Origin: Spirosoma oryzae | GTDB lineage: Bacteria; Bacteroidota; Bacteroidia; Cytophagales; Spirosomataceae | Length of the DNA: 64,000 bases | Reading direction: 5' to 3' | Assembly: GCF_003002825.1 (NCBI RefSeq) | Contig: NZ_PVTE01000008.1 | Location: 186,001-250,000 of the forward strand | In this document: one piece after another, positions 1,426-18,862 of the stretch | Position numbering within the stretch: position 1 is the stretch's first letter | Layout: each line of letters starts with the position of its first letter | The notes under the pieces: model-generated | Seen by the model: only the letters and a program-made list of their open reading frames with translations | Database searches by the model: none | What the model was told of the DNA's origin: nothing | Position numbers and translations under genes: made by a program

Positions 1426-1635
1426 CTAAAAGGGCTGGGTGGTGGTGGGATCGAGCCACAGGCCCAGTACCGGGAACGGAAGCTGATTCACGCCGACACC
1501 ACCGTTTACCTGATCCAGCAGTTCCGGGTTGGCCTGCCCCTGCTCATCCAGCTGCGCCAGTTGATTCATAAACTCTTCCTGACTGGTAGCCTGATTTTTC
1601 AGCGCGTCGATCTTGGTAGTAACCTGATTTTTCAT
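1426..1635 (-). CDS. Double-glycine-leader peptide (putative bacteriocin/signal precursor)
   Basis: 69 residues. A long amphipathic leader, about 46 residues, ends in PELLDQVNGG, the classic site cut by C39 peptidases. The predicted mature part is VGVNQLPFPVLGLWLDP followed by TTTQPF: short, aromatic and proline-containing, with no Cys and no Lys. A C39-peptidase ABC transporter is encoded at 16601-18862. The gene sits between an XRE regulator (1756-1998) and a Cys-rich protein (1003-1407), all on the minus strand. The core resembles in style that of the peptide at 9747-9917 (GLGFWL against VLGLWL). Confidence 0.65.
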   Translation of the reverse strand: MKNQVTTKIDALKNQATSQEEFMNQLAQLDEQGQANPELLDQVNGGVGVNQLPFPVLGLWLDPTTTQPF

Positions 1636-1755: not shown

Positions 1756-1998
1756 TTATACGCTCTGCTGACGCAGGGCCGTAATCAGCAGATCGGGCAG
1801 CGCCATGTCGATCAGGTCGACAAGGGCTATTTTGTAGAGCGACGATAACTGTTGCAGAACCGACAGCGACAGTTCGGTTCGGCCGGTTTCCTTTTTACTG
1901 TAAGCGGCCTGACTGACACCAAGGTGAAAAGCAACGTATTCCTGCGGGTAACCATGGATTTCGCGCAGCTTGCGGAGTTTAGTCGATATAGGGTGCAT
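1756..1998 (-). CDS. XRE-family helix-turn-helix regulator
   Basis: 80 residues, a single HTH_3 domain: KLRKLREIHGYPQEYVAFHL then GVSQAAYSKKETGRTELSLS, the typical Cro/CI helix 2-3 arrangement. There is no extra sensor domain. It is the first gene of the minus-strand operon with the double-glycine peptide (1426-1635) and Cys-rich protein. Two phased LytTR-like half-sites (2075-2109) lie upstream, reading toward this gene. It may regulate its own operon; this is inferred from position. Confidence 0.85.
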   Translation of the reverse strand: MHPISTKLRKLREIHGYPQEYVAFHLGVSQAAYSKKETGRTELSLSVLQQLSSLYKIALVDLIDMALPDLLITALRQQSV

Positions 1999-2039: not shown

Positions 2040-2047
2040 CAAATGAA
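2040..2047 (-). promoter_or_regulatory. Candidate -7 element of the XRE/peptide operon
   Basis: On the minus strand the bases read TTCATTTG, one off the Bacteroidota TAnnTTTG. It lies 36 bases from the near TGGTCGA half-site; the equivalent distance at lanA is 37 bases. Weak on its own; the matched spacing is the support. Confidence 0.35.
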
Positions 2048-2074: not shown

Positions 2075-2109
2075 TTTCGACCAATGCGTCACAACTTTCG
2101 ACCAATGCG
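2075..2109 (-). promoter_or_regulatory. Pair of phased LytTR-type half-sites
   Basis: Two identical 14-mers TTTCGACCAATGCG at 2075-2088 and 2096-2109, exactly 21 bp apart (two helical turns). Read on the minus strand they are CGCATTGGTCGAAA, the orientation found before lanA. They lie in the divergent gap between the XRE operon and the LytTR gene, and could act on either promoter. On the plus side the second copy covers the place where the -33 box would sit for a TATATTTA at 2123-2130. LytTR regulators (AgrA, ComE, PlnC) are known to bind direct repeats with this period. Confidence 0.65.
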
Positions 2110-2146
2110 GGCTATCTGACGCTATATTTAGCCAACAGTACTCCCT

Positions 2147-2920
2147 ATGAACCACGTATTATCCTGCTACCTGCTCGACGACGAGTCGCCGGCTCATATC
2201 ATCCTGTCGAAATACATCAGTCGATTACCGTACCTCACACTCGCCGGTCAGAGCTACGATCCGTTTGAGGGACTCGATCAGATACAGACTCTTAAGCCCG
2301 ATATACTCTTTCTGGACGTTGAGATGCCGTTTATGACCGGTGTCGAGTTTCTGAAGGCCCTGCCGCAGCCCCATCCCGTGGTGGTTATGGTTACGGCATC
2401 GCCCCAGTTTGCCGCTGATACGTATAATTTCGACGCCGTCACCCACTACCTGCTCAAGCCGGTGGGCTTCGACAAGTTTCTGGAAGCGGTTAATCGCGTA
2501 ACCAAGCGGCTTGGCTTTACCCCCAGCACGACGGACCCACTACCCCAGCCCGAGCGTAAACCGACCCCTGCCCCCCCAGCCGTCGACAGCCGCGAGACAG
2601 TGCCGTATTTTCTGATTAAGGAAGACAAAAAGCTGATTCGGGTAGCCCCGGAAGACATTGTCTTTGCGGAAGGCATGAAGGATTACATCAAACTTCACCT
2701 GACCACCCGCGTGCTGATTACGCACATGACGATGAGCAAGCTGGAAGATATGCTGCCGCCGTCTCAGTTTCTGCGTATCAACCGGTCGTATCTAATTCGG
2801 CGACAGGCCATCAAGGAGATCGACGGCAACACGATCACGACGCTCGATGGCAAGCAGGTAACAATTGGTGTTACCTATCGGGACCGCGTCATGGACGCCC
2901 TGAAGCAAAATATACTGTAG
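2147..2920 (+). CDS. LytTR-family response regulator
   Basis: 257 residues. A receiver domain (about 4-120) has the acidic pair DD at 11-12, phospho-acceptor D57 in FLDVEMP, T83 and K104 in LLKP. A Pro-rich linker follows, then a LytTR DNA-binding domain (about 155-255) with VFAEGMKDYIKLH, MTMSKLEDMLPP, FLRINRSYLI and the closing KQVTIGVTYRDRV. It is the natural partner of the two LytS-type kinases that follow at 3007 and 4216. Regulators of this class commonly control bacteriocin and quorum-sensing genes. Repeats with LytTR spacing occur at 2075, 5400 and 5958. Confidence 0.95.
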   Translation: MNHVLSCYLLDDESPAHIILSKYISRLPYLTLAGQSYDPFEGLDQIQTLKPDILFLDVEMPFMTGVEFLKALPQPHPVVVMVTASPQFAADTYNFDAVTHYLLKPVGFDKFLEAVNRVTKRLGFTPSTTDPLPQPERKPTPAPPAVDSRETVPYFLIKEDKKLIRVAPEDIVFAEGMKDYIKLHLTTRVLITHMTMSKLEDMLPPSQFLRINRSYLIRRQAIKEIDGNTITTLDGKQVTIGVTYRDRVMDALKQNIL

Positions 2921-3006
2921 TCTACGGGGATACCTGCGACTGATTACCTGTTGGTTCACTGCACTTTGTCACCGCACCGACCGGTCGACAATCTGATGCT
3001 CTTTTC

Positions 3007-4200
3007 ATGAACTCTCCTACTATTGCCCCGCCCCGGCTAACTCTCTTTATCCAACGTCACTGGGATTGGATTCGCATCACACTGCATATACTATTATGGA
3101 TAGTGACCTTTGGATTGGCCTTTTACACTACGTCAATTCTAGCACCGAATGATCTATTTGTTAGAAGTGTATTTGCGCCAGGCATCGCACTACTTACGCT
3201 AGCTTTTTTTTACATATCGGGCTATATCATATTCCCCAAATACCTTTATTCTTTTCGTTCTTTTCCTTTATTTACCAGTCTTATACTTTTGTTTTACATC
3301 ATTCACCTGTTTACTTACACCTTACTTTATTACTTACACAACTACAACCCAATCAACAATCAGTACATAGATACTCGTTGGCATTTATTTGAAAGTGCAG
3401 GTTTATTGGGTTGTTTTACTAGTCCGCGTGTTGCACTCATTAACGTTGTCTTTACTAGTAATGTAGCACTTATCTATCTAGTCCCCAAAGTAGCTAAAGA
3501 CCTGGTTGTCATCCTGTCCCGGTCACTACAACTCGAAGGCGATAAACTCCGGCTCGAACGCGACAACCTCGACCTGGAACTGAACTTCCTCAAGGCGCAG
3601 GTCAACCCCCACTTCCTGCTCAACACCCTCAACAGCGTCTACGCCCGCATCTTCGAGGCCGACCAGCAGGCCGCCGACCTGGTCCTGCACCTCTCTGAGC
3701 TGATGCGCTACAACCTCTACGAGACTGACCAGCCTCGCATCAGCCTCGACAAAGAACTCGCCTACATTCAGCACTACCTCGACCTGGAACGAAGCCGACT
3801 TGCCCACCAACCCGTGCTCATCGACTATGAGCAGAGCGGCCAGCCAGCCCACTACCAGATTGCCCCCCTGCTGCTGATTGCCTTTGTGGAGAACGCTTTC
3901 AAGCACGGGGTGAAGGGGGCCACCCAGCCGGCCTACGTGCAGGTCCGGGCTGACGTTGACACCAATGGCCACTTTACCTTCACCGTTGAGAACAGCCTGC
4001 CCGATAGTAAGCCATCGGCTAGCCGCCCCGAAGCGCGTTCAGGCGGTGTAGGGCTGGTCAACGTGCGTCGTCGGCTGGAAGCCCTCTACGCGGGGCTCTA
4101 TACACTCGACGCCACCGCCGACCGACCTACTTACACGGTCACCCTGACGATGGAACTAGAACAAGTCAGCCACCCAATGCCAACCGTTGCGCTAGCTTAG
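3007..4200 (+). CDS. LytS/YpdA-type sensor histidine kinase, copy 1
   Basis: 397 residues. The N-terminal ~170 residues hold several hydrophobic membrane helices with no recognised extracellular domain. A short coiled-coil linker (LEGDKLRLERDNLDLE) leads to a His_kinase (PF06580) domain with phospho-acceptor H202 in QVNPHFLLNTLNS. The HATPase part has ENAFKHGV (N-box) and GGVGLVNVRRRLE (G-box). The membrane half is AT-rich, the kinase half GC-rich. From about 3621 onward the DNA is nearly identical to the second kinase gene (4216-5397), while the membrane halves differ. It probably phosphorylates the regulator at 2147. Confidence 0.93.
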   Translation: MNSPTIAPPRLTLFIQRHWDWIRITLHILLWIVTFGLAFYTTSILAPNDLFVRSVFAPGIALLTLAFFYISGYIIFPKYLYSFRSFPLFTSLILLFYIIHLFTYTLLYYLHNYNPINNQYIDTRWHLFESAGLLGCFTSPRVALINVVFTSNVALIYLVPKVAKDLVVILSRSLQLEGDKLRLERDNLDLELNFLKAQVNPHFLLNTLNSVYARIFEADQQAADLVLHLSELMRYNLYETDQPRISLDKELAYIQHYLDLERSRLAHQPVLIDYEQSGQPAHYQIAPLLLIAFVENAFKHGVKGATQPAYVQVRADVDTNGHFTFTVENSLPDSKPSASRPEARSGGVGLVNVRRRLEALYAGLYTLDATADRPTYTVTLTMELEQVSHPMPTVALA

Positions 4201-4215
4201 CCAATTCATCCGTTT

Positions 4216-5397
4216 ATGCACTCCCCTACCATTACCCCGCCCCGGTTGATTGCTTTTACCCAGCGTTACTGGACTTGGATTCGCCCGCTATTGCACATTA
4301 TGTTCTGGGTGTTACTGTACTTACTACTGTTACGCCCGACGGCTCCAAGAGTTTTCAATGATAACGCGCTTGTTATCAAAACAGTAATAATTACGAGTTT
4401 GGTGGAGACTATTGTCATTCATTACTTTGTCAGCCTAGTTGTATTTCCCAAGTTTCTCTACAGGCAAGCCTATCTGAAATCAGCTGCTATATTCTTGTTG
4501 CTTTTCTTTATAGTTTATCAGACTAATACTATCTTATTTACTTATCTATCTACAATCAGCGATCAGGTAGGTACCGACCATAAACTAAAATACGCGGTCG
4601 CTACCGCTCATATGGTTCAACAAGCTGGCTTCTGGGGTTGCTTTACCGATTTACGTGCAGCACTGTGGAATCTATCCTTTGGTCTATTTCTACCTATTTT
4701 AACGCTCATTACTCAAGGCTTTAATGATTTGATTCGCTATCAGAGACGCCTTGTTGAAGCTGAACGAGTCAGGCTTAGGCTTGAGGTTGACTTTCTAAAA
4801 GCCCAGGTTAATCCTCACTTTCTCTTCAACACCCTCAACAGCGTCTACGCCCGCATCTTCGAGGCCGACCAGCAGGCCGCCGACCTGGTCCTCCACCTCT
4901 CTGAGCTGATGCGCTACAACCTCTACGAGACCGACCAGCCACGCATCAGCCTCGACAAGGAACTCGCCTACATTCAGCACTACCTCGACCTGGAACGGAA
5001 CCGACTTGCCCACCAACCCGTGCTCATCGACTATGAGCAGAGCGGCCAGCCAGCCCACTACCAGATTGCCCCCCTGCTGCTGATTGCCTTTGTGGAGAAC
5101 GCCTTCAAGCACGGGGTGAAGGGGGCCACCCAGCCGGCCTACGTGCAGGTCCGGGCTGACGTTGACACCAATGGCCACTTTACCTTCACCGTTGAGAACA
5201 GCCTGCCCGATAGTAAGCCATCGGCTAGCCGCCCAGAAGCGCGTTCAGGTGGTGTAGGGCTGGTCAACGTGCGTCGTCGGTTGGAGGCCCTCTACGCGGG
5301 GCTCTATACACTCGACGCCACCGCCGACCAACAAGCTTACACGGTCACCTTGACGGTGCAACTGGAACCAACGACCGCTTCTATACAAGTGTACTAA
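4216..5397 (+). CDS. LytS/YpdA-type sensor histidine kinase, copy 2
   Basis: 393 residues, starting 16 bases after copy 1. The first residues (MHSPTITPPRLIAFTQRYW) resemble those of copy 1 (MNSPTIAPPRLTLFIQRHW), and the PHFLFNTLNS motif (H201) through the G-box is almost unchanged. The membrane part between is strongly diverged. The pair therefore looks like a tandem duplication in which the kinase part has been kept the same, by recent copying or gene conversion, while the sensor part changed. Two kinases sensing different signals but feeding one regulator is the likely meaning. Directly downstream are the phased repeats and the lanA promoter. Confidence 0.93.
   Translation: MHSPTITPPRLIAFTQRYWTWIRPLLHIMFWVLLYLLLLRPTAPRVFNDNALVIKTVIITSLVETIVIHYFVSLVVFPKFLYRQAYLKSAAIFLLLFFIVYQTNTILFTYLSTISDQVGTDHKLKYAVATAHMVQQAGFWGCFTDLRAALWNLSFGLFLPILTLITQGFNDLIRYQRRLVEAERVRLRLEVDFLKAQVNPHFLFNTLNSVYARIFEADQQAADLVLHLSELMRYNLYETDQPRISLDKELAYIQHYLDLERNRLAHQPVLIDYEQSGQPAHYQIAPLLLIAFVENAFKHGVKGATQPAYVQVRADVDTNGHFTFTVENSLPDSKPSASRPEARSGGVGLVNVRRRLEALYAGLYTLDATADQQAYTVTLTVQLEPTTASIQVY
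4827..5352 (+). repeat. Near-identical kinase-domain duplication (partner 3621-4146)
   Basis: About 525 bp that match 3621-4146 almost base for base with a constant offset of 1206. Only scattered single differences are seen, for example NRL/SRL and the Arg-Pro to Gln-Gln change near the end. The flanking membrane-domain DNA does not match. Confidence 0.9.
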
Positions 5398-5453
5398 ACT
5401 GGTCGATCAAATTCCGGCATTGGTCGAAATCTCCCTGGTAATTGGTCTAAAGT
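5398..5453 (+). promoter_or_regulatory. Three phased LytTR-type half-sites upstream of lanA
   Basis: TGGTCGA at 5400, TGGTCGA at 5421 (in full GCATTGGTCGAAA, 5417-5429, identical to the 2075/2096 copies read on the other strand) and a variant TGGTCTA at 5443. The steps are 21 and 22 bp. The last copy ends just before the -33 element at 5455, a class II activator position. Likely bound by the LytTR regulator encoded at 2147. Confidence 0.65.
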
Positions 5454-5454
5454 A

Positions 5455-5487
5455 ATTGAAGCGGCCCTGGGGAGTTCGCTACATTTG
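5455..5487 (+). promoter_or_regulatory. Promoter of the lanthipeptide precursor gene
   Basis: ATTG (5455-5458), 21 bases, then TACATTTG (5480-5487), an exact match to the Bacteroidota TAnnTTTG -7 box. The precursor ATG follows at 5538. Confidence 0.6.
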
Positions 5488-5537
5488 AATCGTCAACCGA
5501 CACGAACTACATCCATCTCCCTAAAGCATCTGAAGCC

Positions 5538-5681
5538 ATGAAAAACGTAACTGCTACCACCGCCCCCCGTCTGACGTTAAAAAAAGAGCGTATCGTTTGT
5601 CTTAACTCAACTATTATAACAACTACAAATCACGGGAAATCAGGTTGGCCTTGTGGCCTTCTCACACTCACGCAATGCTAG
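5538..5681 (+). CDS. Class I lanthipeptide precursor (LanA-like)
   Basis: 47 residues, easily missed by gene callers. The leader contains RLTLKKERIVCLN (11-23), the L-x-L-K-K-x-x-I-x-x-L-N motif of Bacteroidota class I lanthipeptides. The following region is rich in Ser/Thr (S24, T25, T28-30, S35, T43, T45) and has cysteines at 39 and 47, the last residue. Two spans fit thioether rings of equal size: S35-GWP-C39 and T43-LTQ-C47. There is no double-glycine cut site, so leader removal is unexplained. It has its own promoter and regulator-like repeats, and the dehydratase gene lies 366 bases downstream. Identification rests on motif plus neighbour. Confidence 0.8.
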   Translation: MKNVTATTAPRLTLKKERIVCLNSTIITTTNHGKSGWPCGLLTLTQC

Positions 5682-5864
5682 TTTGCATAATCCTTTTCCG
5701 CAGCTAAATAGGAAAGATTAGCTCTTGAATCATTATACCAGGACTTTTTTGAAGACCCGGATTATTGCCAACCAATTACTGATGCCCTGTTCAGAATATA
5801 ATTTCAAGTTGCAACTACATACGCCTGTAAGTACCTGATCTACACGTCGATTGTTCTCAACAGC

Positions 5865-5900
5865 ATAACGGCCCGAGCATCTCGATGCTCGGGCCGTTAT
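5865..5900 (+). terminator. Terminator between lanA and lanB
   Basis: Perfect 16-bp stem ATAACGGCCCGAGCAT (5865-5880) with its complement at 5885-5900 and a CTCG loop. No long T-run follows. Confidence 0.7.
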
Positions 5901-5957
5901 TGTAATGCCCTGACTAACCGAACTTGGTGATTGGCGTTAAGCCTAATTTAATGGTAG

Positions 5958-5970
5958 TCATTGGTCGAAA
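5958..5970 (+). promoter_or_regulatory. Single LytTR-type half-site upstream of lanB
   Basis: TCATTGGTCGAAA matches the lanA and XRE-operon half-sites. No clear second copy at 21 bp is present; TTCGTTGGCC about 24 bases downstream is a poor partner. Confidence 0.4.
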
Positions 5971-6047
5971 AAGCGCCTGTTTCGTTGGCCTGCCCTATCG
6001 CAAGCGGTAAATTAGTACACTCCTTCCTCACTAGTTTACTTTAGTTC

Positions 6048-9000
6048 ATGCTCCAACGCCATGCCTTCTTCGTACTACGGCAACCAACCTTCCCGATCAG
6101 TACATTAATCCGTTTTTACGATCAACTCACCACGCATTCTTTCGAAGACCTTCTCCGGCAACATTACCAACAGCCACTGGCGCAGGAAGCCTTATTTGTA
6201 GCCTCTCCCATCTTATACGAGCGTTTCCAGCGATGGCTGTCCGGCGAACAACTGCCCGAACAGCCAAAACTGCTGCTGACATTACACAAATACCTGATCC
6301 GCATGTGTAGTCGGGCGACGCCCTATGGCCTGTTTGCCGGCTGCACAACCGGCACGTTCGGCGAACAAACCAGTTTCCGTGCCAGTACCGCTACCGCCCC
6401 CCGTACGCATACCCGTATCGATATGGACGGCCTGCTGGCGATTGGGCGATGGCTAACTACCCTACCCCACATCCGTAGTCAGCTTCGTTTGTTCCCTAAC
6501 ACGTCGATCTACGCAGCAGGGCCATCCTTACGCTATGTCGAACAACAGTGGGATATCGATCACCGCAACTACTTTATCAGTGCCGTCGAGGTCGATCAGT
6601 ACCTGACGACTATTCTTCAGGCAGCGCGCACAGGAGCGACCATCGGCGAGTTAACGACCTGCCTGACAGCCCTCCACACTAATGCCGACGAAGCCACCGA
6701 CTTCATCGACCAGTTGATCGACAGCCAGCTACTGGTCTTTGAGACCGAGCCAACCGTCACGGGACGGCCCTATCTCAACTGGCTAACAGAGCGCCTGGCG
6801 TCGCTGACCGACACAGACGAAGAAGTTGCCGCCCTGCAACAACTAACTGCCGGCTTACAGCAGCCCGACAAACGACAAACGTACAGACACATTCGTCAAT
6901 GGATGCGCGACCGACAGATCGGTCCGCCCACGACTGATATCATGCAGGTTGATTCGTATGTCGATAACCCGAGCCTGCAACTGGGCGAGCGGACCATGCA
7001 GCACCTGGAACGCAGTCTCGAAAAGCTGCTGCTACTCAATCAGCCTAATGTCTGTCCCGATCTGGACGAGTTCAAACGGCGATTTTATAATCGGTACGAA
7101 GACGAGGAAATCCCGCTGACGCTCGCACTCGATCAGGAAGTCGGCGTTGGGTATGGCTCCGGCTCTACACTGGGCGTCGGTTACGCACCCCTCATCGACG
7201 ACCTCACCTTCGCCAGTAGTGCAGCCCCCCAAACCACCACCTGGGACTGGTGGCAAACGTTTGTGATGGACAAATACGCGTCGGCACTTCGCAGCCGACG
7301 CGCCACCAGTGATATCGACGAGATTGTCCTGACCGACGACGATCTGACTTACATCGCTCAGCAGCGCCCTATGACGGATAGCATGCCGGATACCTTTTAT
7401 GCCTTCGGTTCGTTCCTGGCTTCGTCGGCAAAAGCGCTCGATGAAGGTAATTTCCGGTTTACGCTGCTCGCCTACCGGGGACCATCGGCGGTGAATCTTT
7501 TGAGCCGGTTTGGCGAAGGTGATCCGGCGCTGGCCCAGCACATTCGGCACTGCGCTGCCGAAGAAGAAATTCGACAGCCCGACGTGATCCTCGCGGAAGT
7601 CGTTCACCTGCCCGAAAACCGGGTCGGCAATATTCTGACTCGCCCAACGATTCATCCGTACGAGATTCCGTACATGGGGCATTCATCGGCCGATACCGAT
7701 CATCAGATCGACTTGTCGGACCTTGTCGTATCGGTGCGCAATAATCAGGTTATTCTGCGGTCGAAGCGACTTAATCAACGCGTAATTCCCCGGCAGACCA
7801 CCGCCCATAATTTTACGCGTGGTCTGCCGATTTACCGGTTCCTGTGTGATCTTCAGGCCCAGGATGCGCACCTCAACGTGGTCTGGAACTGGGGTGTATT
7901 GCGCACGCAGGTTTACCTGCCCCGCGTACGCTACCAGAACGTAATCGTCAGTCGGGCTACCTGGCAACTTCCGCCCCGGCAGCTCACCCCCGACAATCCG
8001 CTGCGACTGGTGGCCCAACTGACGGCGGCTGGTTTGCCTGACCAGTTTCTGCTAGCCCAGGGCGACAATGAGTTACTGATCAACCTGCACATTCCCGAAT
8101 CACTGGCGCTGCTATCGGCAGAAATCCACCGCTTGCTGGCCACAGCGACGCCGGGCAGCGATCCCAGCCCGCTCCGCCTGGTCGAATTTCTGGCCAAACC
8201 CGATCAGTGCCCCTTCACCAATCGACGCGATGTGTTCACGCATGAGGTAATCATACCCTTCAGCAGCAATCATAACCGCCCGTTACCGGGGCTACAGCAA
8301 ACCAGCAAGCAATTACCACAACGCAAGTTCTCGGTCGGGAGCGAATGGTTTTACCTGAAAGTGTACACCGGTGAAAAGACCTCTGATGCCTTGCTGATGC
8401 AAACCATTTACCCGGTTGTGCAGCAACTGCTGAAGACGCAGACCATTCAGGAATTTTTCTTTATTCGTTACAAAGACACCGATCCACACCTGCGGCTGCG
8501 TTTCCGGGGCAACCCACACCTGGAATTCTATCACCATGTCGTGCGGGCTATGGAGAAGGCGTTACACGATTCAGTTGAGGTCGGTATCGTCCACCGGGTA
8601 CAGGTCGATACGTATCAGCGCGAGTTCGAGCGGTACGGTATGGAGCATATCGGCCTGTGCGAAACACTGTTCCACTGCGACAGTTTGTCGACGCTGTCGT
8701 TTCTGGCGCATACCGGCGATACATTTAACGAGGACTTACGCTTTGCCTTCGCCGTTTGTAAGATCGACCGCTTATTGACCGATACGGGTCTGACAGCTAC
8801 CGACTGCCGGGCAATTCTCAACGCCTTGAAAGAAAGCTTTTTTCAGGAGTTCGGTGGCAATGCAGCCCTGCGGCACCAGCTCAACGAGAAATACCGGACC
8901 TACCGCCCCCTGATGAACCAGGCGCTTAGTAGTAATTTTCCGGGCTTGGCTACTGACGACTGGAGCGACACACAGACCCGGCTGCTTCGCCAGTTAGCTA

Positions 9001-9164
9001 ATACATTCGCCGACACCGATGCGTTGTTCGGTATCCTTTCCAGTCTGATTCACATGATTGTCAACCGCCTGTTTCCGTCCAAGCAGCGGGCGTACGAGCT
9101 GGTACTTTACCATTGTCTGGCCCGCCATTATGATTCCGTACGGGCTAGACAGGCTGTCTCCTGA
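6048..9164 (+). CDS. Full-length lantibiotic dehydratase (LanB)
   Basis: 1038 residues, one polypeptide. The N-terminal part (to about 740) is the tRNA-Glu-dependent glutamylation domain (Lant_dehydr_N), with the hallmark CSRATPYGLFAGCTTG near residues 86-103 (as in NisB-like RTTPYGLF). The C-terminal part (about 760-1030, from SVGSEWFYLKVYTG, with FFFIRYKDTDPHLRLRFRG) is the SpaB_C / thiopeptide-type elimination domain. Together they dehydrate Ser/Thr of the precursor in the cytoplasm. Size and domain order fit an active, unsplit LanB. The substrate is most simply the peptide at 5538-5681. No LanC cyclase, reductase or second LanB-like gene follows. A terminator stands 32 bases after the stop. 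Confidence 0.93.
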   Translation: MLQRHAFFVLRQPTFPISTLIRFYDQLTTHSFEDLLRQHYQQPLAQEALFVASPILYERFQRWLSGEQLPEQPKLLLTLHKYLIRMCSRATPYGLFAGCTTGTFGEQTSFRASTATAPRTHTRIDMDGLLAIGRWLTTLPHIRSQLRLFPNTSIYAAGPSLRYVEQQWDIDHRNYFISAVEVDQYLTTILQAARTGATIGELTTCLTALHTNADEATDFIDQLIDSQLLVFETEPTVTGRPYLNWLTERLASLTDTDEEVAALQQLTAGLQQPDKRQTYRHIRQWMRDRQIGPPTTDIMQVDSYVDNPSLQLGERTMQHLERSLEKLLLLNQPNVCPDLDEFKRRFYNRYEDEEIPLTLALDQEVGVGYGSGSTLGVGYAPLIDDLTFASSAAPQTTTWDWWQTFVMDKYASALRSRRATSDIDEIVLTDDDLTYIAQQRPMTDSMPDTFYAFGSFLASSAKALDEGNFRFTLLAYRGPSAVNLLSRFGEGDPALAQHIRHCAAEEEIRQPDVILAEVVHLPENRVGNILTRPTIHPYEIPYMGHSSADTDHQIDLSDLVVSVRNNQVILRSKRLNQRVIPRQTTAHNFTRGLPIYRFLCDLQAQDAHLNVVWNWGVLRTQVYLPRVRYQNVIVSRATWQLPPRQLTPDNPLRLVAQLTAAGLPDQFLLAQGDNELLINLHIPESLALLSAEIHRLLATATPGSDPSPLRLVEFLAKPDQCPFTNRRDVFTHEVIIPFSSNHNRPLPGLQQTSKQLPQRKFSVGSEWFYLKVYTGEKTSDALLMQTIYPVVQQLLKTQTIQEFFFIRYKDTDPHLRLRFRGNPHLEFYHHVVRAMEKALHDSVEVGIVHRVQVDTYQREFERYGMEHIGLCETLFHCDSLSTLSFLAHTGDTFNEDLRFAFAVCKIDRLLTDTGLTATDCRAILNALKESFFQEFGGNAALRHQLNEKYRTYRPLMNQALSSNFPGLATDDWSDTQTRLLRQLANTFADTDALFGILSSLIHMIVNRLFPSKQRAYELVLYHCLARHYDSVRARQAVS

Positions 9165-9746: not shown

Positions 9747-9917
9747 ATGACAAACGAAGACATGGATCACCCAGAAAACCAGTCGTTACGACAAGACGAA
9801 CTTGAGCAGATCGACGGGGGACGTCCAGGCGGGCAACCGGTTCAGGATATGCCTGTGCCAAAGGTACCCGTCTGGTACACCGACCCGGAGACAGGTCTTG
9901 GTTTCTGGCTGTATTAA
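9747..9917 (+). CDS. Double-glycine-leader peptide, aromatic/Pro core
   Basis: 56 residues from the ATG at 9747; a longer TTG-started frame from 9675 is less likely. The leader DELEQIDGG ends in a double glycine at 24-25, with a second GG at 28-29. The core runs QPVQDMPVPKVPVWYTDPE then TGLGFWLY: four Pro, three aromatic residues near the C-terminus, no Cys. The next peptide gene starts 25 bases later. Probably exported and cut by the C39 transporter at 16601-18862. Confidence 0.7.
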   Translation: MTNEDMDHPENQSLRQDELEQIDGGRPGGQPVQDMPVPKVPVWYTDPETGLGFWLY

Positions 9918-9941
9918 TCACCCTCGACTAACCAGACAAGT

Positions 9942-10151
9942 ATGAAAACACTCGATCAATTTATTCCAGCTATTGGCAGCGAGTTAGATGCCGCGAGCCA
10001 ACAGCAAACAGGTGGTGGTTTCGATGATGTATCGTTTGCCCGGTTGCCGATTGCGTTTCCCCGACCACTCCCACCCATTGATTGGCCAATCAGATTACCA
10101 CCAATTAATTTACCGATACAGTTGCCGATTCCTTTTGCCACGGATTACTAG
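9942..10151 (+). CDS. Double-glycine-leader peptide with proline-rich core
   Basis: 69 residues. Leader MKTLDQFIPAIGSELDAASQ then QQTGGG at 21-26. The core has eleven prolines in about 43 residues: FARLPIAFPRPLPPIDWPIR followed by LPPINLPIQLPIPF, with a near-repeat LPPI(D/N)-x-PI. This layout recalls proline-rich antimicrobial peptides such as apidaecin or oncocin, but it has only two Arg, so the likeness may be only in composition. No Cys. The maturation and activity are unknown; the leader fits the C39 transporter encoded downstream. Confidence 0.7.
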   Translation: MKTLDQFIPAIGSELDAASQQQTGGGFDDVSFARLPIAFPRPLPPIDWPIRLPPINLPIQLPIPFATDY

Positions 10152-10274
10152 CCCCCTATTGATACGTAATAGATAATAGTTATCGATACGACGACGCATT
10201 CATAGTAGACAACCGGGCGGACACGTACGGAAAGCAATTCAAAAAACTATGCAGGTGAATGGGATGTACAGAGC

Positions 10275-10304
10275 AATTTTCCCGCTCTAGATAGCGGGAA
10301 AATT
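10275..10304. terminator. Hairpin after the Pro-rich peptide gene
   Basis: 12-bp stem AATTTTCCCGCT (10275-10286) / AGCGGGAAAATT (10293-10304), loop CTAGAT. No T-run follows directly, so it may be a weak terminator or a processing signal. Confidence 0.5.
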
Positions 10305-10364
10305 CTTACCTAAAAAAACACCCACACCTTATAACCTGATCGAATAAAGTACAACAACAGGTTG

Positions 10365-10395
10365 TTGAAAAACGTAAAATATCACCTGACCTTTG
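10365..10395 (+). promoter_or_regulatory. Promoter of lipoprotein/peptide genes
   Basis: TTG (10365-10367), 20 bases, GACCTTTG (10388-10395); the lipoprotein ATG is at 10427. The upstream block GTTGTTGAAAA is shared with the 9294 promoter. Confidence 0.5.
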
Positions 10396-10426
10396 TACCA
10401 TACCAGCAAGCAAAAACAGCAAGAAA

Positions 10427-10657
10427 ATGACCACAAAAAATCTATTGGTAGCGGCCGGACTTTTGTTCCTGGCTACCGCCTGTAAAGAAAGCAACACCAT
10501 TGCTCCAGCATCGACGACTGTTCAAAAAGAATCGCCTGCCCCCAAACTACAGGGTGACCCCCTTGACGACACGATCGACAATCCGAAAGGCAAGCCAGCG
10601 CGAATAAGAGATCTTACGCCAGAAAGACCTTCCCCCATCACGGAATTGCCGAATTAG
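10427..10657 (+). CDS. Small lipoprotein, possible immunity protein
   Basis: 76 residues. A signal peptide LLVAAGLLFLATAC ends in a lipobox with Cys19; the rest is a hydrophilic, Pro/Thr/Lys-rich tail without a recognised domain. It is set among the peptide genes, 21 bases before the next one. Small lipoproteins encoded next to lantibiotic genes (the LanI type) often give self-protection. That role here is inferred from position and size only. Confidence 0.7.
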   Translation: MTTKNLLVAAGLLFLATACKESNTIAPASTTVQKESPAPKLQGDPLDDTIDNPKGKPARIRDLTPERPSPITELPN

Positions 10658-10678
10658 ACTTACTTATTTTCTAAAATT

Positions 10679-10840
10679 ATGCACACGGATATTCAGGAAA
10701 TTTCACAGACTGAAGCGGCAGACATTACAGGCGGGAACTGGTTTATCCAACTGGCAGCGCGCCTTGCTGATACGCTCTGCGATTTGAGCGATGATTTCGA
10801 AGCAAACGGATCGAACAGACCTTACCAGCAGTACGAATAA
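10679..10840 (+). CDS. Double-glycine-leader peptide, ADITGGNW pair member 1
   Basis: 53 residues. MHTDIQEISQTEAADITGG then NWFIQLAARLADTLCDLSDD and an Asn/Gln/Tyr tail. The leader aligns without gaps to that of the peptide at 10878-11006 (QEI-S/T-Q-x-EA-x-DITGGNW), showing a recent duplication with core divergence. The core is amphipathic, with one Cys. Confidence 0.7.
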   Translation: MHTDIQEISQTEAADITGGNWFIQLAARLADTLCDLSDDFEANGSNRPYQQYE

Positions 10841-10877
10841 TTCAGTTTATTTTTTCACGTATATGTTCAACACAGCT

Positions 10878-11006
10878 ATGCAAGTAGACTATCAGGAGAT
10901 TACCCAGGAAGAAGCAAAAGACATCACGGGTGGCAACTGGCTATCTGACGCTCTCGTCGATGCAGCCGCGGACCTGCTCCGCCGACTAATGGGCCCCAAC
11001 GTTTAA
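10878..11006 (+). CDS. Double-glycine-leader peptide, ADITGGNW pair member 2
   Basis: 42 residues from the ATG at 10878. The start was chosen because the leader MQVDYQEITQEEAKDITGG then matches the neighbour peptide residue for residue; an ATG at 10863 would add five residues. The core NWLSDALVDAAADLLRRLMG reads as an amphipathic helix, a plausible membrane-active peptide. Starts 37 bases after the previous stop. Confidence 0.7.
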   Translation: MQVDYQEITQEEAKDITGGNWLSDALVDAAADLLRRLMGPNV

Positions 11007-11254
11007 ATTACCCTCTTTGCAATACCTGATCGCTTCGTTGCTGATTCGTCAGCGGAAGATAATTGATAGCGATTCCAAAACGCCCTGACACAGATCGGCG
11101 AAACTCAGCCAATTAGCGGACCCTATCGACAACAGGCATCAGGAAACTACTCATACACAGTGCGCGTACCGTTTGCTGTGAGTTTGGCATCCGGGCTAAG
11201 TCCAGAACGCAGTGAACAAAATCAATTTTTATAACTATTTAACAATCAAACACA

Positions 11255-11380
11255 ATGTCTAATTTCAACCTCGATCAGGCCGAAGTAGTAGAAATGAATG
11301 CATTCGACATGAATCAGGTAGACGGTGGTGACGCGCTGCACTACATGCTGGCGGCTGCTATTCTACTTTTGTTACTGTAA
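11255..11380 (+). CDS. Double-glycine-leader peptide, QAEVVEMN pair member 1
   Basis: 41 residues. Leader MSNFNLDQAEVVEMNAFDMN then QVDGG; core DALHYMLAAAILLLLL, a purely hydrophobic membrane-spanning-like segment. The leader is shared with the next peptide (FN-x-x-QAEVVEMN). It is separated from the 10878 gene by about 250 bases without a visible gene. Confidence 0.7.
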   Translation: MSNFNLDQAEVVEMNAFDMNQVDGGDALHYMLAAAILLLLL

Positions 11381-11432
11381 CCTGTCACAAGTGTTATTAC
11401 AAATCTATTAATCAACTAATTTTACACAAAAA

Positions 11433-11609
11433 ATGAACACATTCAATTTTTATCAAGCCGAGGTAGTAGAAATGAATTCCGAGGATTTACAAATTGTGGA
11501 GGGTGGTATATTCGGATGGGATGATGTTGCTATCGCCGTAGTTGCATATGTTGCCTGCGAAGTAATTGATGGGATAGCACGTTATGCAAATGGCGAACGT
11601 TCACGGTAA
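11433..11609 (+). CDS. Double-glycine-leader peptide, QAEVVEMN pair member 2
   Basis: 58 residues. Leader MNTFNFYQAEVVEMNSEDLQ then IVEGG; core IFGWDDVAIAVVAYVACEVI followed by a charged tail DGIARYANGERSR. A hydrophobic helix with one Cys. It is a paralogue of the peptide at 11255 in the leader only, so the core has been exchanged or diverged quickly. Base composition shifts to AT-rich from here on. Confidence 0.7.
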   Translation: MNTFNFYQAEVVEMNSEDLQIVEGGIFGWDDVAIAVVAYVACEVIDGIARYANGERSR

Positions 11610-11649
11610 TATATAATCACTTAATTAACTACAAAATTCGTAAGAAATC

Positions 11650-11799
11650 ATGTTCAATCAATTTGATAGCCTCTCGGAAAATGAAATGAGTTTTATCATC
11701 GGTGGTGGTGGTATATCGGACTTGACTGTTAGAGTCTTGACTTGGATTGGTGATAATTTCCATAGATTGCAGGTTGAAGACCCTTCACTCTATATGTAA
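11650..11799 (+). CDS. Double-glycine-leader peptide, IIGGGG type
   Basis: 49 residues. Leader MFNQFDSLSENEMSFIIGG, then GG and the core ISDLTVRVLTWIGDNFHRLQ ending VEDPSLYM. The leader is of the same short acidic kind as its neighbours but not closely related. The core looks like an amphipathic helix with Trp, Arg and His. A strong terminator follows 20 bases after the stop, closing the peptide array. Confidence 0.65.
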   Translation: MFNQFDSLSENEMSFIIGGGGISDLTVRVLTWIGDNFHRLQVEDPSLYM

Positions 11800-12180: not shown

Positions 12181-12508
12181 ATAGAGTACAACACACTGTT
12201 ATTGAGCCCCGTATAGTATCTACTGACCTTTGGTATACAAAACTGGTACGCCGGTAGCCAGTATCCCAAACGCCAGAAACGATGCAAAAACAATTTCACC
12301 CACCTACCGTCATTGAGCATACGACGGAGGCTTACCTGCCCCAGGTTACGGTTCGGGGGCAGCTCATCTATTGCTCGGTCGCGCTCGCCATTGTGGCGGC
12401 TCTGGTAGCCCTTCCTTTCATTCGTACCGCTGTATCGGTGCAGAGCGCGGGCATCATCCGCCCGGTTGCCGAACGTAATGACCTTCGCCCGCTGGTAGCC
12501 GGTACGGT
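12181..12508 (+). repeat. First copy of the 328-bp promoter + hlyD-start duplication
   Basis: Aligns without gaps to 15199-15526: the same promoter, leader and first ~75 codons of the HlyD adaptor gene. By eye about nine bases in ten agree. Similarity stops sharply after the shared GGTAGCCGGTACGGT. The two direct copies bracket a 2.7-kb AT-rich segment. Confidence 0.9.
12202..12232 (+). promoter_or_regulatory. Promoter copy driving the truncated hlyD
   Basis: TTG (12202-12204), 20 bases, GACCTTTG (12225-12232). Conserved with 15220-15250, so it could still drive the downstream AT-rich genes. Confidence 0.5.
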
Positions 12509-12527
12509 GGCTACCACTGTTTGGTGA
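12282..12527 (+). pseudogene. Truncated HlyD-type adaptor (N-terminal fragment)
   Basis: 81 codons. The first ~75 residues (starting MQKQFHPPTVIEHTTEAYLP) match the complete adaptor at 15300-16478, including the membrane helix and SAGIIRPVAERNDLRPLVAG. The frame then diverges (TTVW) and stops. The whole biotinyl/coiled-coil/barrel part is missing, so it cannot act as an adaptor. It is a by-product of the 328-bp duplication. Confidence 0.88.
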
Positions 12528-15198: not shown

Positions 15199-15526
15199 AT
15201 AGAGTACAACGGGCTGTTATTGAGCCGCGCACGGCAGCTGCGGACCTTTGGTATACAAAACCGGCATGCCGGTAGCCAGTATCCCAAACGCCAGAAGCAA
15301 TGCAGAATCAGTTACACCCGCCCACCGTCATTGAGCATACGACGGAGGCTTACCTGCCCCAGGTTACGGTTCGGGGGCAGCTCATCTATTGCTCGGTCGC
15401 GTTCGCCATTATCGCGGCTCTGGTAGCCCTTCCCTTCATTCGTACCGACGTGTCGGTGCAGAGCGCGGGCATCATCCGCCCGGTCGCCGAACGCAACGAC
15501 CTTCGCCCGCTGGTAGCCGGTACGGT
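15199..15526 (+). repeat. Second (intact) copy of the 328-bp duplication
   Basis: Promoter, leader and first codons of the complete hlyD; partner of 12181-12508. Confidence 0.9.
15220..15250 (+). promoter_or_regulatory. Promoter of the export operon
   Basis: TTG (15220-15222), 20 bases, GACCTTTG (15243-15250). Kept in both copies of the duplication although the spacer bases differ, which supports it as functional. Confidence 0.6.
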
Positions 15527-16478
15527 CGCGCAGGTGCTGGTACGCGACAATCAGCCGGTCAGGCGGGGGCAACCCATGATCCGGCTGCAAACGGACGTAC
15601 TCGACACCAAACTGCGGCTCAACCGTTCGCAGCAGGCAGAGAAACTGCTTAACATTCACGATCTCGATCGACTCGTCCGGGCGACGCGTCACGACCTGCT
15701 GACTATCGCTGGACTGCAATCGCCCCTGATCCGGCAGCAGTATGAGCAATTTCGGTTTTTGCTGACGGAGAATGTGCAGACGCAGGAAAAGCGGAAGCAC
15801 GAACTCGACGTCACGCAACAGCTCTATCAGGACAAAGTACTGGCGCGGCAGGAATTTGAAGACAAGGAGTTTGCGCACAAAACGGTTGTCGCGCAGTATG
15901 CCGCGCAGGTGGAGCGGCAGGTAAGCGACTGGCAGGCGAACCTGACGCAGCATCAGCTTGCCCTCGATGAGTTACGGGCGCAGGAACGGCAGCTCCTGAA
16001 CGAACGCGACCTGCACACGATCAAAGCGCCCGTCGATGGAACGGTGAGTCAACTGGCGGGCCGCTATCCGGGCAGCTATGTACAGCCGGGCGAGGTGCTG
16101 GGTGTGATCTCACCGGATTCCAACCTGCTGGTCGAGTGCTACGTCTCGCCCAAAGACATTGGCCTGCTGCGCCCCGGCATGACCGCCCGGATGCAGGTCG
16201 ACGCCTTCGACTACAACCAGTGGGGGCTGGTACAAGCCAAAGTCGCCGAAGTATCCAATGATGTCGTCGTCGTCAACGAACAGCCGGTCTTTAAAGTCCG
16301 CTGTCAGCTGGCGCGGAACTTTCTGACGCTGAAAGAAGGCTACAAAGGCTACCTGAAAAAAGGCATGACGCTGCGGGCCCGGTTCGTCGTTACCGAACGC
16401 AGCCTGTTCGACCTTCTCTACGACAACGCCGACGACTGGCTCAACCCCACACAGTCGCATACGCTGGCAAAAAACTAA
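15300..16478 (+). CDS. HlyD-family periplasmic adaptor of peptide exporter
   Basis: 392 residues. Short cytoplasmic start, one membrane helix (LIYCSVAFAIIAALVALPFI, about 29-48), lipoyl half-domain (VAGTVAQVLVRDNQPVRRGQ), a long coiled-coil hairpin rich in Gln/Glu, the second lipoyl half (IKAPVDGTVSQLAGRYPGSY) and a beta-barrel (LRPGMTARMQVDAFDYNQWG). It links the inner-membrane C39 ABC transporter (16601-18862) to the TolC-like protein (18859-20325). The N-terminus is duplicated at 12282. A gap of 122 bases with a repeat element separates it from the transporter gene. Confidence 0.93.
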   Translation: MQNQLHPPTVIEHTTEAYLPQVTVRGQLIYCSVAFAIIAALVALPFIRTDVSVQSAGIIRPVAERNDLRPLVAGTVAQVLVRDNQPVRRGQPMIRLQTDVLDTKLRLNRSQQAEKLLNIHDLDRLVRATRHDLLTIAGLQSPLIRQQYEQFRFLLTENVQTQEKRKHELDVTQQLYQDKVLARQEFEDKEFAHKTVVAQYAAQVERQVSDWQANLTQHQLALDELRAQERQLLNERDLHTIKAPVDGTVSQLAGRYPGSYVQPGEVLGVISPDSNLLVECYVSPKDIGLLRPGMTARMQVDAFDYNQWGLVQAKVAEVSNDVVVVNEQPVFKVRCQLARNFLTLKEGYKGYLKKGMTLRARFVVTERSLFDLLYDNADDWLNPTQSHTLAKN

Positions 16479-16600: not shown

Positions 16601-18862
16601 ATGGCCAACCATACGATTATCAAACAGCACGATATTACCGATTGCGGGGCGGCTTGCCTGGCGTCGATATCGGCTCACTATAAGTTGATGATGCCCATTG
16701 CCCGCATCCGGCAAATGGCGTCGACCGATCAGAAAGGCACCAACGTACTCGGCATGATCGAAGCCGCTACCCGCTTGGGCTTTCAGGCAAAGGGGGTACG
16801 GGGTACGTTCGAAAGCCTGACCAAGATTCCCAAACCGGCTATTGCTCACGTCGTCGTCAAGGAAGTGCTGCACCATTTTGTGGTCATTTACGACGTCACC
16901 GACAAGCACATCGTCGTGATGGACCCCGGACCGGGCAAACTCATCAAACACACGCACGAAGAGTTCAAGAAAATCTGGACGGGCGTGCTGATTCTGCTCC
17001 TGCCCGACGAGCAGTTCGAAGCGGGCAACGAAAAAGTGTCGGCCATGCAGCGGTTCTGGCAACTGATCCGGCCACACCGCAGCGTGATGATACAGGCCCT
17101 GTTCGGCGCGCTGATTTACACCGTACTCGGCCTGTCGACGTCGATTTACGTGCAGAAAATCGTCGACAACGTGATCGTGGAAGGCAACCGAAACCTGCTC
17201 AATCTGCTCAGCGTCGTCATGATTCTGATTCTGGCTTTGCAGCTGTTTATCGGTACGCTCAAAAGCATGTTCGCGCTCAAGACCGGGCAACAGATCGACG
17301 CGCGGCTGATTCTGGGGTATTACAAACACCTGATGAAACTGCCGCAACAGTTCTTCGATACCATGCGCGTTGGGGAGATCATCTCGCGGATCAACGACGC
17401 CGTCAAGATTCGGGCGTTCATCAACGATGCCGCTACCAGCTTGGTTGTCAACGTATTCATTGTCCTGTTTTCGTTCGGCATGATGTTTACCTACGACTGG
17501 AAACTGGCGCTGATTATGCTGGCCGTCATTCCGTTCTACGCGGGTATCTACGTTGTCGTCAACCGGCTGAACAAGAAGCACCAGCGGACGCTGATGGAAG
17601 ACGCGGCCGAACTGGAATCGCAACTGGTCGAGTCGCTCAACGCCATGGGTACGATCAAGCGATTCGGTCTGGAGTCGTTCGCCAACATTAAAACGGAGAC
17701 GCGTTTCGTCAAATTACTGAAAACCATTTTCACCTCGGCCCGCAACTCGGTATGGTCGGGTAACGCGACGGAGATTGTGTCGCGGCTGTTTACGATTATC
17801 CTGTTGTGGGTCGGCGCGGGCTTTGTCATCGACAATCAGATCACGCCCGGCGAACTGCTGTCGTTCTACGCACTGATCGGCTACTTCACCGGCCCGGCCA
17901 GTCAGCTGATCGGCGCAAACCGTACCGTACAGGACGCGCTGATTGCCGCCGACCGTCTGTTCGAGATCATGGACCTGGAGCGGGAAGCCACCGAGAACAA
18001 GATCGAGCTACAACCGGAGATGCTGGGCGACATCCGCTTCACCGACGTGTCGTTTCGCTACGGCACCCGTACCCAGGTATTCGACAAGCTGACGCTGGTC
18101 GTACCGCAGGGCAAGATTACGGCCGTTGTGGGTGAAAGCGGCTCGGGCAAATCGACCATGCTGTCGCTGCTGCAAAACATTTATCCGCTGCAACATGGCA
18201 GTATTCACATCGGCGATTACGACATCAAACACATCAGCAACGACAGCATCCGCCGGCGGGTAAGCGTGGTCCCGCAGAAAATCGACCTGTTTGCGGGTAA
18301 TGTCATCGACAACATCGCCGTGGGCGACTACCAGCCGAACATGCAGCGTATCATATCCATCTGCCAGCGACTCGGCATCACCGATTTTATTGAGAAACTG
18401 CCCAACGGTTTTCATACGTACCTCGGTGAAAACGGAGCCAGTTTATCGGGGGGGCAGAAGCAGCGAATTGCCATTGCCCGCGCCCTATACCAGAATCCTG
18501 ACGTGCTGATTCTGGACGAAGCGACCTCCTCGCTCGACTCCGTTTCGGAGCAGTGTGTGCAGGAAACCATTCGCCACCTGCGCGAACACAACAAGACGGT
18601 AATTCTGATTGCGCACCGGCTCAGCACGGTGATGCACGCCGACAAAATCGTCGTAATCGAGCAGGGTAAACTTATCGAAGAAGGTACCCATACGGAGCTG
18701 CTGATGCGGGAAGGCGCGTATTACAAGCTGTGGGCGTCGCAGATGCCGCTAACCATTTCAGCACACCCGGCAACGACACTTAACCTGATGCAGATCAGCG
18801 CCAACGGCGATCAGTCGGCGGCTTCCGAATCGGCTATCACACCAGCCACCCTGACCGTATGA
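16601..18862 (+). CDS. Peptidase-containing ABC transporter (C39, PCAT)
   Basis: 753 residues. N-terminal C39 peptidase (about 1-135) with C15 in DITDCGAACL, the His of LHHFVVIYDV (92) and D108 in MDPGPG. Then a six-helix ABC exporter membrane domain (about 150-440) and a nucleotide-binding domain with Walker A GESGSGKST (about 511), signature LSGGQKQR (about 616) and Walker B VLILDEATSSLD. Such proteins cut leaders after a double glycine and export the peptide. The seven peptides at 9747-11799 and the one at 1426 carry that site; the LanA peptide does not. The stop overlaps the start of the next gene by 4 bases (ATGA), so the two are translationally coupled. Confidence 0.96.
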   Translation: MANHTIIKQHDITDCGAACLASISAHYKLMMPIARIRQMASTDQKGTNVLGMIEAATRLGFQAKGVRGTFESLTKIPKPAIAHVVVKEVLHHFVVIYDVTDKHIVVMDPGPGKLIKHTHEEFKKIWTGVLILLLPDEQFEAGNEKVSAMQRFWQLIRPHRSVMIQALFGALIYTVLGLSTSIYVQKIVDNVIVEGNRNLLNLLSVVMILILALQLFIGTLKSMFALKTGQQIDARLILGYYKHLMKLPQQFFDTMRVGEIISRINDAVKIRAFINDAATSLVVNVFIVLFSFGMMFTYDWKLALIMLAVIPFYAGIYVVVNRLNKKHQRTLMEDAAELESQLVESLNAMGTIKRFGLESFANIKTETRFVKLLKTIFTSARNSVWSGNATEIVSRLFTIILLWVGAGFVIDNQITPGELLSFYALIGYFTGPASQLIGANRTVQDALIAADRLFEIMDLEREATENKIELQPEMLGDIRFTDVSFRYGTRTQVFDKLTLVVPQGKITAVVGESGSGKSTMLSLLQNIYPLQHGSIHIGDYDIKHISNDSIRRRVSVVPQKIDLFAGNVIDNIAVGDYQPNMQRIISICQRLGITDFIEKLPNGFHTYLGENGASLSGGQKQRIAIARALYQNPDVLILDEATSSLDSVSEQCVQETIRHLREHNKTVILIAHRLSTVMHADKIVVIEQGKLIEEGTHTELLMREGAYYKLWASQMPLTISAHPATTLNLMQISANGDQSAASESAITPATLTV

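Follow-up and report, generated by a model that had tools for sequence, protein, structure and literature searches.

The 64,000-nucleotide stretch of Spirosoma oryzae DNA analysed here (the window, G000:C8:186001-250000) contains a LytTR two-component system, neighbouring peptide genes, and copies of a short sequence element, termed the half-site, in front of several of these genes. The genome of this organism (G000) amounts to 6.57 Mb in 75 contigs; G, C and L numbers denote genomes, contigs and loci, respectively. The response regulator is encoded at 2147..2920 (+) and contains both a receiver and a LytTR DNA-binding domain (Pfam Response_reg, 47.7 bits, and LytTR, 67.3 bits, above cut-off). 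Its residues D57 and K104 are invariant among 30 aligned sequences. The best 60 matches listed for the full-length sequence show receiver domains, which also fill the best 50 solved-structure matches listed for its predicted model (mean pLDDT 83.5). In a profile search with the LytTR domain, AgrA was recovered at E 3.8e-4, but ComE no better than 0.034. Two sensor histidine kinases of the LytS type follow at 3007..4200 (+) and 4216..5397 (+), each with a His_kinase domain (PF06580; 80.9 and 83.3 bits) and the conserved histidine in an NPHF motif, at residue 200 in the first and 199 in the second. The kinase halves of the two genes (3584-4162 and 4790-5368) share 95% DNA identity over 579 bp whilst the sensor halves diverge, which points to a recent duplication or gene conversion. 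On the opposite side of the regulator gene, an 80-residue XRE protein is encoded at 1756..1998 (-) (Pfam HTH_3, 42.5 bits, cut-off 23). The second gene of its operon, pepX (1426..1635, -), is an open reading frame (ORF) for a 69-residue double-glycine leader peptide. Beyond the kinases lie lanA (5538..5681, +), an ORF for a 47-residue precursor resembling LanB substrates, and lanB (6048..9164, +), encoding a full-length dehydratase.

The half-sites are of the type CATTNGTCGAA, and were scored against the 12-mer CATTGGTCGAAA. By this comparison four of the six in the window are exact and two are degenerate. Two exact copies on the minus strand, the proximal one at 2075..2086 and the distal one at 2096..2107 (a step of 21 bp), precede the XRE operon. 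Three on the plus strand precede lanA: a degenerate half-site at 5397..5408 (AACTGGTCGATC, 4/12 mismatches), an exact one at 5418..5429 following a step of 21 bp, and the proximal one at 5440..5451 (AATTGGTCTAAA, 2/12 mismatches, GTCTAAA type) following a step of 22 bp. The sixth, also exact, stands by itself 5' of lanB at 5959..5970 (+). A preliminary description of the locus had reported all six, and they were located within 0-3 bases of the places it gave. Its steps of 21 bp in the left pair and of 21 and 22 bp at lanA are borne out by the locus scan; only its starts at 5400, 5421, 5443 and 5958 are shifted, by 1-3 bases.

With up to two mismatches allowed per half-site, the window contains three tandem pairs, one at XRE and the rest at lanA, and no further phased pair, as had been claimed. 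First-order Markov simulations of the window (n=60) gave a mean of 0.03 tandem pairs and a maximum of 1. The single 12-mer is unremarkable, with 10 occurrences at <=2 mismatches against 5.8 expected and 6 of 100 shuffles reaching as high a count. The signal in the window resides in phasing, not in 12-mer abundance. Genome-wide, 4 of the 6 exact copies of the 12-mer fall in the window, and at <=1 mismatch it occurs 58 times against 54 for the reversed control, which is chance level and no excess. This last figure is what would be seen if the repeats were chance occurrences or functionless residue of a mobile element. Such an origin is extremely improbable given the phasing, and given the promoter geometry and conservation described below; it is contradicted already by the spacing of half-sites in 692 kb of genus loci. 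There, pairs at <=1 mismatch (n=36) are spaced by 21 bp (30 pairs), 22 bp (3) or 43 bp (3), no pair has any other spacing between 11 and 60 bp, and the reversed control yields none. This is the spectrum expected of a LytTR-type operator, with direct repeats approximately 21-22 bp apart.

The left pair had been described as lying between the XRE operon and the LytTR gene. We assign it to the XRE promoter because it follows XRE in rearranged relatives. In G007 and G012, where the XRE and regulator genes converge, the pair is found on the outer side of XRE, and in six further genomes (G002, G004, G005, G033, G017 and G015) XRE lies from approximately 6 kb to 3.1 Mb away from the regulator and has retained the pair. 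Nor is the regulon self-contained, as first supposed, since an unlinked operon on contig C5 of the same genome also carries three half-sites. At C5:268889-269560, one half-site lies 5' of a gene for a small membrane protein, and three with steps of 22 and 21 bp precede genes for an ABC ATPase and a 1205-residue ABC permease. The operon encodes two small membrane proteins, the ATPase, and the permease, which is fused to an M1 peptidase (HETAH motif). Homologues of this ABC/M1 system are part of the cluster or close to it in five genomes (G014, G017, G022, G029, G034); in four others (G000, G007, G018, and G025, there on a different contig) they are located elsewhere.

The promoter consensus of Bacteroidota is TAnnTTTG. 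In the window, the -7 box of XRE (TTCATTTG, 2040..2047, -) starts 39 bp from the start of the proximal half-site, and that of lanA (TACATTTG, 5480..5487, +) starts 40 bp from it. The relation had been noticed before, with distances of 36 and 37 that were counted from a different reference point. We aligned 45 promoters selected by the motif (19 XRE, 16 lan, 8 ABC and 2 small-gene promoters), a set that excludes the XRE promoter of G013, which has a variant motif, and the ABC promoter of G034, which lacks a half-site. In 42 of the 45, the start of the proximal half-site and that of the best match to TAnnTTTG are 39-40 bp apart; in the remaining three, a box at 39 scores as high as the best one. 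The offset of the lan box is 40 in G009, G020 and G023. Three promoter classes recur: XRE with two half-sites, lan mostly with three, and ABC with two or three. The last half-site in the lan promoters of relatives is mostly of the GTCTAAA type, whilst all 29 XRE, ABC and small-gene promoters have GTCGAA in the proximal half-site, partly as an effect of the motif-based selection.

The lanB promoter differs in having one half-site only and a -7-like box (TAAATTAG, at 6008) at 49 rather than 39-40, a layout shared by G018. This puts the lanB site out of register by about one turn. The earlier proposal that the motif links the two-component system to three peptide-gene promoters holds, as regards a phased repeat, for the XRE/peptide operon and lanA. 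In several lan promoters (approximately 5487-5500 in the window), a conserved GAATCGTCAAC-like stretch immediately follows the -7 box and is possibly a second operator. Elsewhere in the genome, an exact single site at C22:20749, 85 bp 5' of the start of a minus-strand ORF, lacks a -7-like box at both 39 and 40 and probably arose by chance.

The same geometry would be compatible with a regulator that binds the arrays and represses these promoters, as the proximal half-site is near the likely -33 region. Repression is nevertheless unlikely: the half-sites end 5' of the -7 region, always at the same distance from it, and 15 of the 19 XRE promoters have a best box without the A of TAnnTTTG, as expected if an activator is needed. 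AgrA, moreover, acts from upstream direct repeats, according to an excerpt of its description (PMC4227749).

Conservation was assessed in 36 genomes of the genus Spirosoma, 22 with and 14 without a regulator orthologue, using orthologue cut-offs (regulator >260 bits; XRE >=89 bits) chosen after inspection of the lists. The pair pattern at <=2 mismatches gives 35 matches in 19 of the 36 genomes, compared with 7 for the reversed control, and is present in 19/22 regulator-bearing genomes versus 0/14 others. The three regulator-bearing exceptions are G010 and G023, which have degenerate pairs, and G013, which has a changed core. Thirty of the 35 pair loci were examined, and 29 adjoin homologues of the regulator, kinase, XRE, lan or C5 ABC genes. 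The remaining locus, in G027 (L153:1833-2307), is 8 kb away from the regulator, directly 5' of two double-glycine peptide ORFs, with no XRE gene. The comparison of relatives' upstream regions that the preliminary description had recommended shows pairs recurring before the same genes.

Across 200 genomes of the family, a search at <=1 mismatch gave 26 matches in 18 genomes and none in the control; seven matches lie outside the genus, five of them beside the system. A motif-blind search for direct repeats of 21/22 bp, run on 20 orthologous loci from other genera, detected repeats of the motif type next to the system in 15 of them; of its 33 rows, 16 were of this type and 17 were unrelated repeats. 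Among 54 more distant loci with a regulator homologue, including those of Chitinophaga, Emticicia and Pedobacter, a LanB homologue is present within the fetched flank in 19, and motif pairs account for 4 rows in 3 loci, a count without a control.

The regulator is not the only candidate reader of the motif. The XRE protein could bind it, controlling both its own gene and the lan genes, with the LytTR gene a mere neighbour. The pair indeed sits at the XRE promoter in all 19 XRE promoters aligned, and XRE (found in 20 of the 36 genus genomes) correlates with the motif nearly as strongly as the regulator does, the motif being present in 18/20 genomes with XRE versus 1/16 without. In G027 and G010, however, the regulator and the motif are present, although neither genome has an XRE orthologue at E <= 1e-10. 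Further, in G013 and in G037 and G072 (another genus), the half-sites read [GA]CCGAA at XRE and the proximal one reads [GA]ACGAA at lan, so that the core T is lost. Among 42 aligned regulators, the segments ESDSDY and TYMTM occur only in these three genomes, whilst the helix-turn-helix segment SQAAYSKKETGRTELSL of their XRE proteins is the same as in other close relatives. Because the motif core changes together with the regulator segments and the XRE segment stays constant, the most likely reader of the motif is the LytTR protein, not XRE. The three variant regulators are mutually 85-90% identical, so the swap counts as one event, not three. Direct repeats with a 21-22 bp period also suit LytTR proteins, being the targets of the LytTR regulators ComE and PlnC. 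AgrA likewise binds direct repeats, and the variant segments align around its residues L171 and E181, both reported close to DNA (PMC4227749, in excerpt). Together these observations make XRE a quite unlikely reader.

We propose, with a probability of roughly 0.85, that the LytTR regulator binds the phased half-sites and activates the promoters of XRE-pepX, lanA, probably lanB, and the C5 operon. From the motif, its phasing, the promoter geometry, the conservation, the co-occurrence with the regulator and the linked change of motif and regulator, all of which are computed observations, we infer physical binding, activation over repression, dependence on phosphorylation, a signal and a purpose. 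One or both of the neighbouring PF06580 kinases would phosphorylate the regulator, which would then bind head-to-tail CATTNGTCGAA half-sites 21-22 bp apart. The bound regulator would activate promoters in which the -7 box and the proximal half-site have this spacing of 39-40 bp, counted from start to start. Its targets would be the XRE-pepX operon, lanA and the unlinked C5 operon, and probably lanB through its single half-site. The system would serve to make a modified peptide for secretion, and the ABC/M1 proteins would act in export, processing or self-protection. The sole ground for the earlier label 'signal-responsive' is that the system is two-component.

Besides the XRE correlation and the single origin of the specificity swap, several results weigh against this proposal. 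Pairs at <=3 mismatches number 3 in the whole S. oryzae genome versus 4 in the control and provide no new target. The pattern TTGGTC-N13-18-TTGGTC, with 18 matches against 21 in the control, was too loose and was dropped. The p-value of 1.8e-7 for the association of pair and regulator is indicative only, as the genomes are related and it overstates their independence. A half-site array is present at 8 of 9 ABC/M1 operons, a share drawn from a biased sample in that these loci were collected via the motif or the cluster; in the ninth, G034, the ABC genes lie directly 3' of XRE with no array of their own. Finally, two of the seven matches outside the genus adjoin nothing related.

The products of the lan genes resemble those of class I lanthipeptide pathways. 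LanB has both the N-terminal and the C-terminal domain (Pfam Lant_dehydr_N, 526 bits, and Lant_dehydr_C, 221 bits). The LanA leader, LTLKKERIVCL, fits LxLxKx5L, which is given as the leader motif of Bacteroidetes class I LanAs in an excerpt of PMC7268733, though it scores 14 bits with the NCBIfam lant_leader model, under the cut-off of 22. The full-length LanB is shared with the class I lanthipeptide clusters of Bacteroidota, and the leader resembles theirs in its LxLxKx5L form. Unlike those, S. oryzae has no LanC, its genome giving no PF05147 (LANC_like) match at E <= 0.001, and 6 of 11 precursors read have no cysteine outside the leader motif. The lan product may thus not be a lantibiotic, and without a LanC match that label is premature; the term bacteriocin, used in the preliminary description, is unproven for the same reason.

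A perfect 16-bp hairpin lies between lanA and lanB (5865..5900, +; fold -30.6 kcal/mol, z -6.9; arms checked), and its strength may be the reason for a separate lanB promoter. In 13 of 15 regions examined, the interval between lanA and lanB also holds an ORF of 80-135 codons (for example L145:11736-12068(+), L147:12117-12443(+) and L160:7508-7870(-)). These ORFs show homology to the receiver domain of the regulator (seven sequences vs A1, hhalign probability 97.8), although the phosphorylation residues are absent and no Pfam model matches above cut-off. There is none in S. oryzae (window 5682-6047), and in G009 the frame is open but lacks an early ATG. Such a stand-alone degenerate receiver in the lan operon of most relatives examined, though not of S. 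oryzae, is a possible built-in damper.

An ABC exporter with a C39 leader peptidase domain is encoded at 16601..18862 (+) (Pfam Peptidase_C39, 122.6 bits; NCBIfam TIGR01193, above cut-off), following a gene for an HlyD-type membrane fusion protein at 15300..16478 (+) (Pfam). PepX is a putative cargo of this exporter, and the phased pair in front of XRE would place it under the control of the regulator. We tentatively suggest a self-inducing circuit, doubtful as it is, within a Gram-negative phylum, in which PepX, exported by the C39 protein, would be sensed by the PF06580 kinases and would induce pepX itself, the dehydrated peptide of the LanB-only pathway, and the unlinked ABC/M1 operon for self-protection. 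Relatives of pepX were found in the fetched regions of 6 of the 22 regulator-bearing genus genomes, S. oryzae included, and once elsewhere, in G054 of another genus.

Several further ORFs accompany these genes. A cysteine-rich ORF of 134 codons (1003-1407, -) lies 3' of pepX and had no match in Pfam and NCBIfam searches; similar ORFs follow XRE in G018 and G023. Directly 3' of XRE in G004, G005, G033, G002 and G015 (L163-L167) is an ORF of 223-226 codons with a signal-peptide-like start. A series of double-glycine peptide ORFs occupies 9747-11799 of the window, two of which resemble BlpC and cerein-type models at scores below or far below cut-off. At 12282-12527 (+) lies the truncated start of an HlyD gene, 94% identical over 77 residues to the gene at 15300.

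The arrangement resembles the Gram-positive LytTR regulons of the AgrA, ComE and PlnC type, in which direct repeats about two helical turns apart also lie upstream of peptide genes. It differs from them in its half-site (CATTNGTCGAA), its Bacteroidota -7 box and its PF06580 kinases, and in having LanB genes and an unlinked ABC/M1 operon among its targets. Pheromone circuits of the ComCDE/Blp type likewise have a double-glycine peptide gene behind a LytTR-type promoter and a C39 exporter nearby, but use another kinase family; pepX, a putative pheromone gene, has relatives in the fetched regions of only the few genomes counted above.

No description of a LytTR recognition element or promoter rule in Bacteroidota was found in the open-licence PMC literature searched, as far as its accessible text extends. 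The analysis provides both, in testable form, for a LytTR regulator of this phylum. It also connects a distant ABC/M1-peptidase operon with LanB-only peptide clusters, a link that cluster-based mining would overlook. Lastly, the natural specificity swap in the G013-type regulators offers a handle on how LytTR domains choose their DNA.

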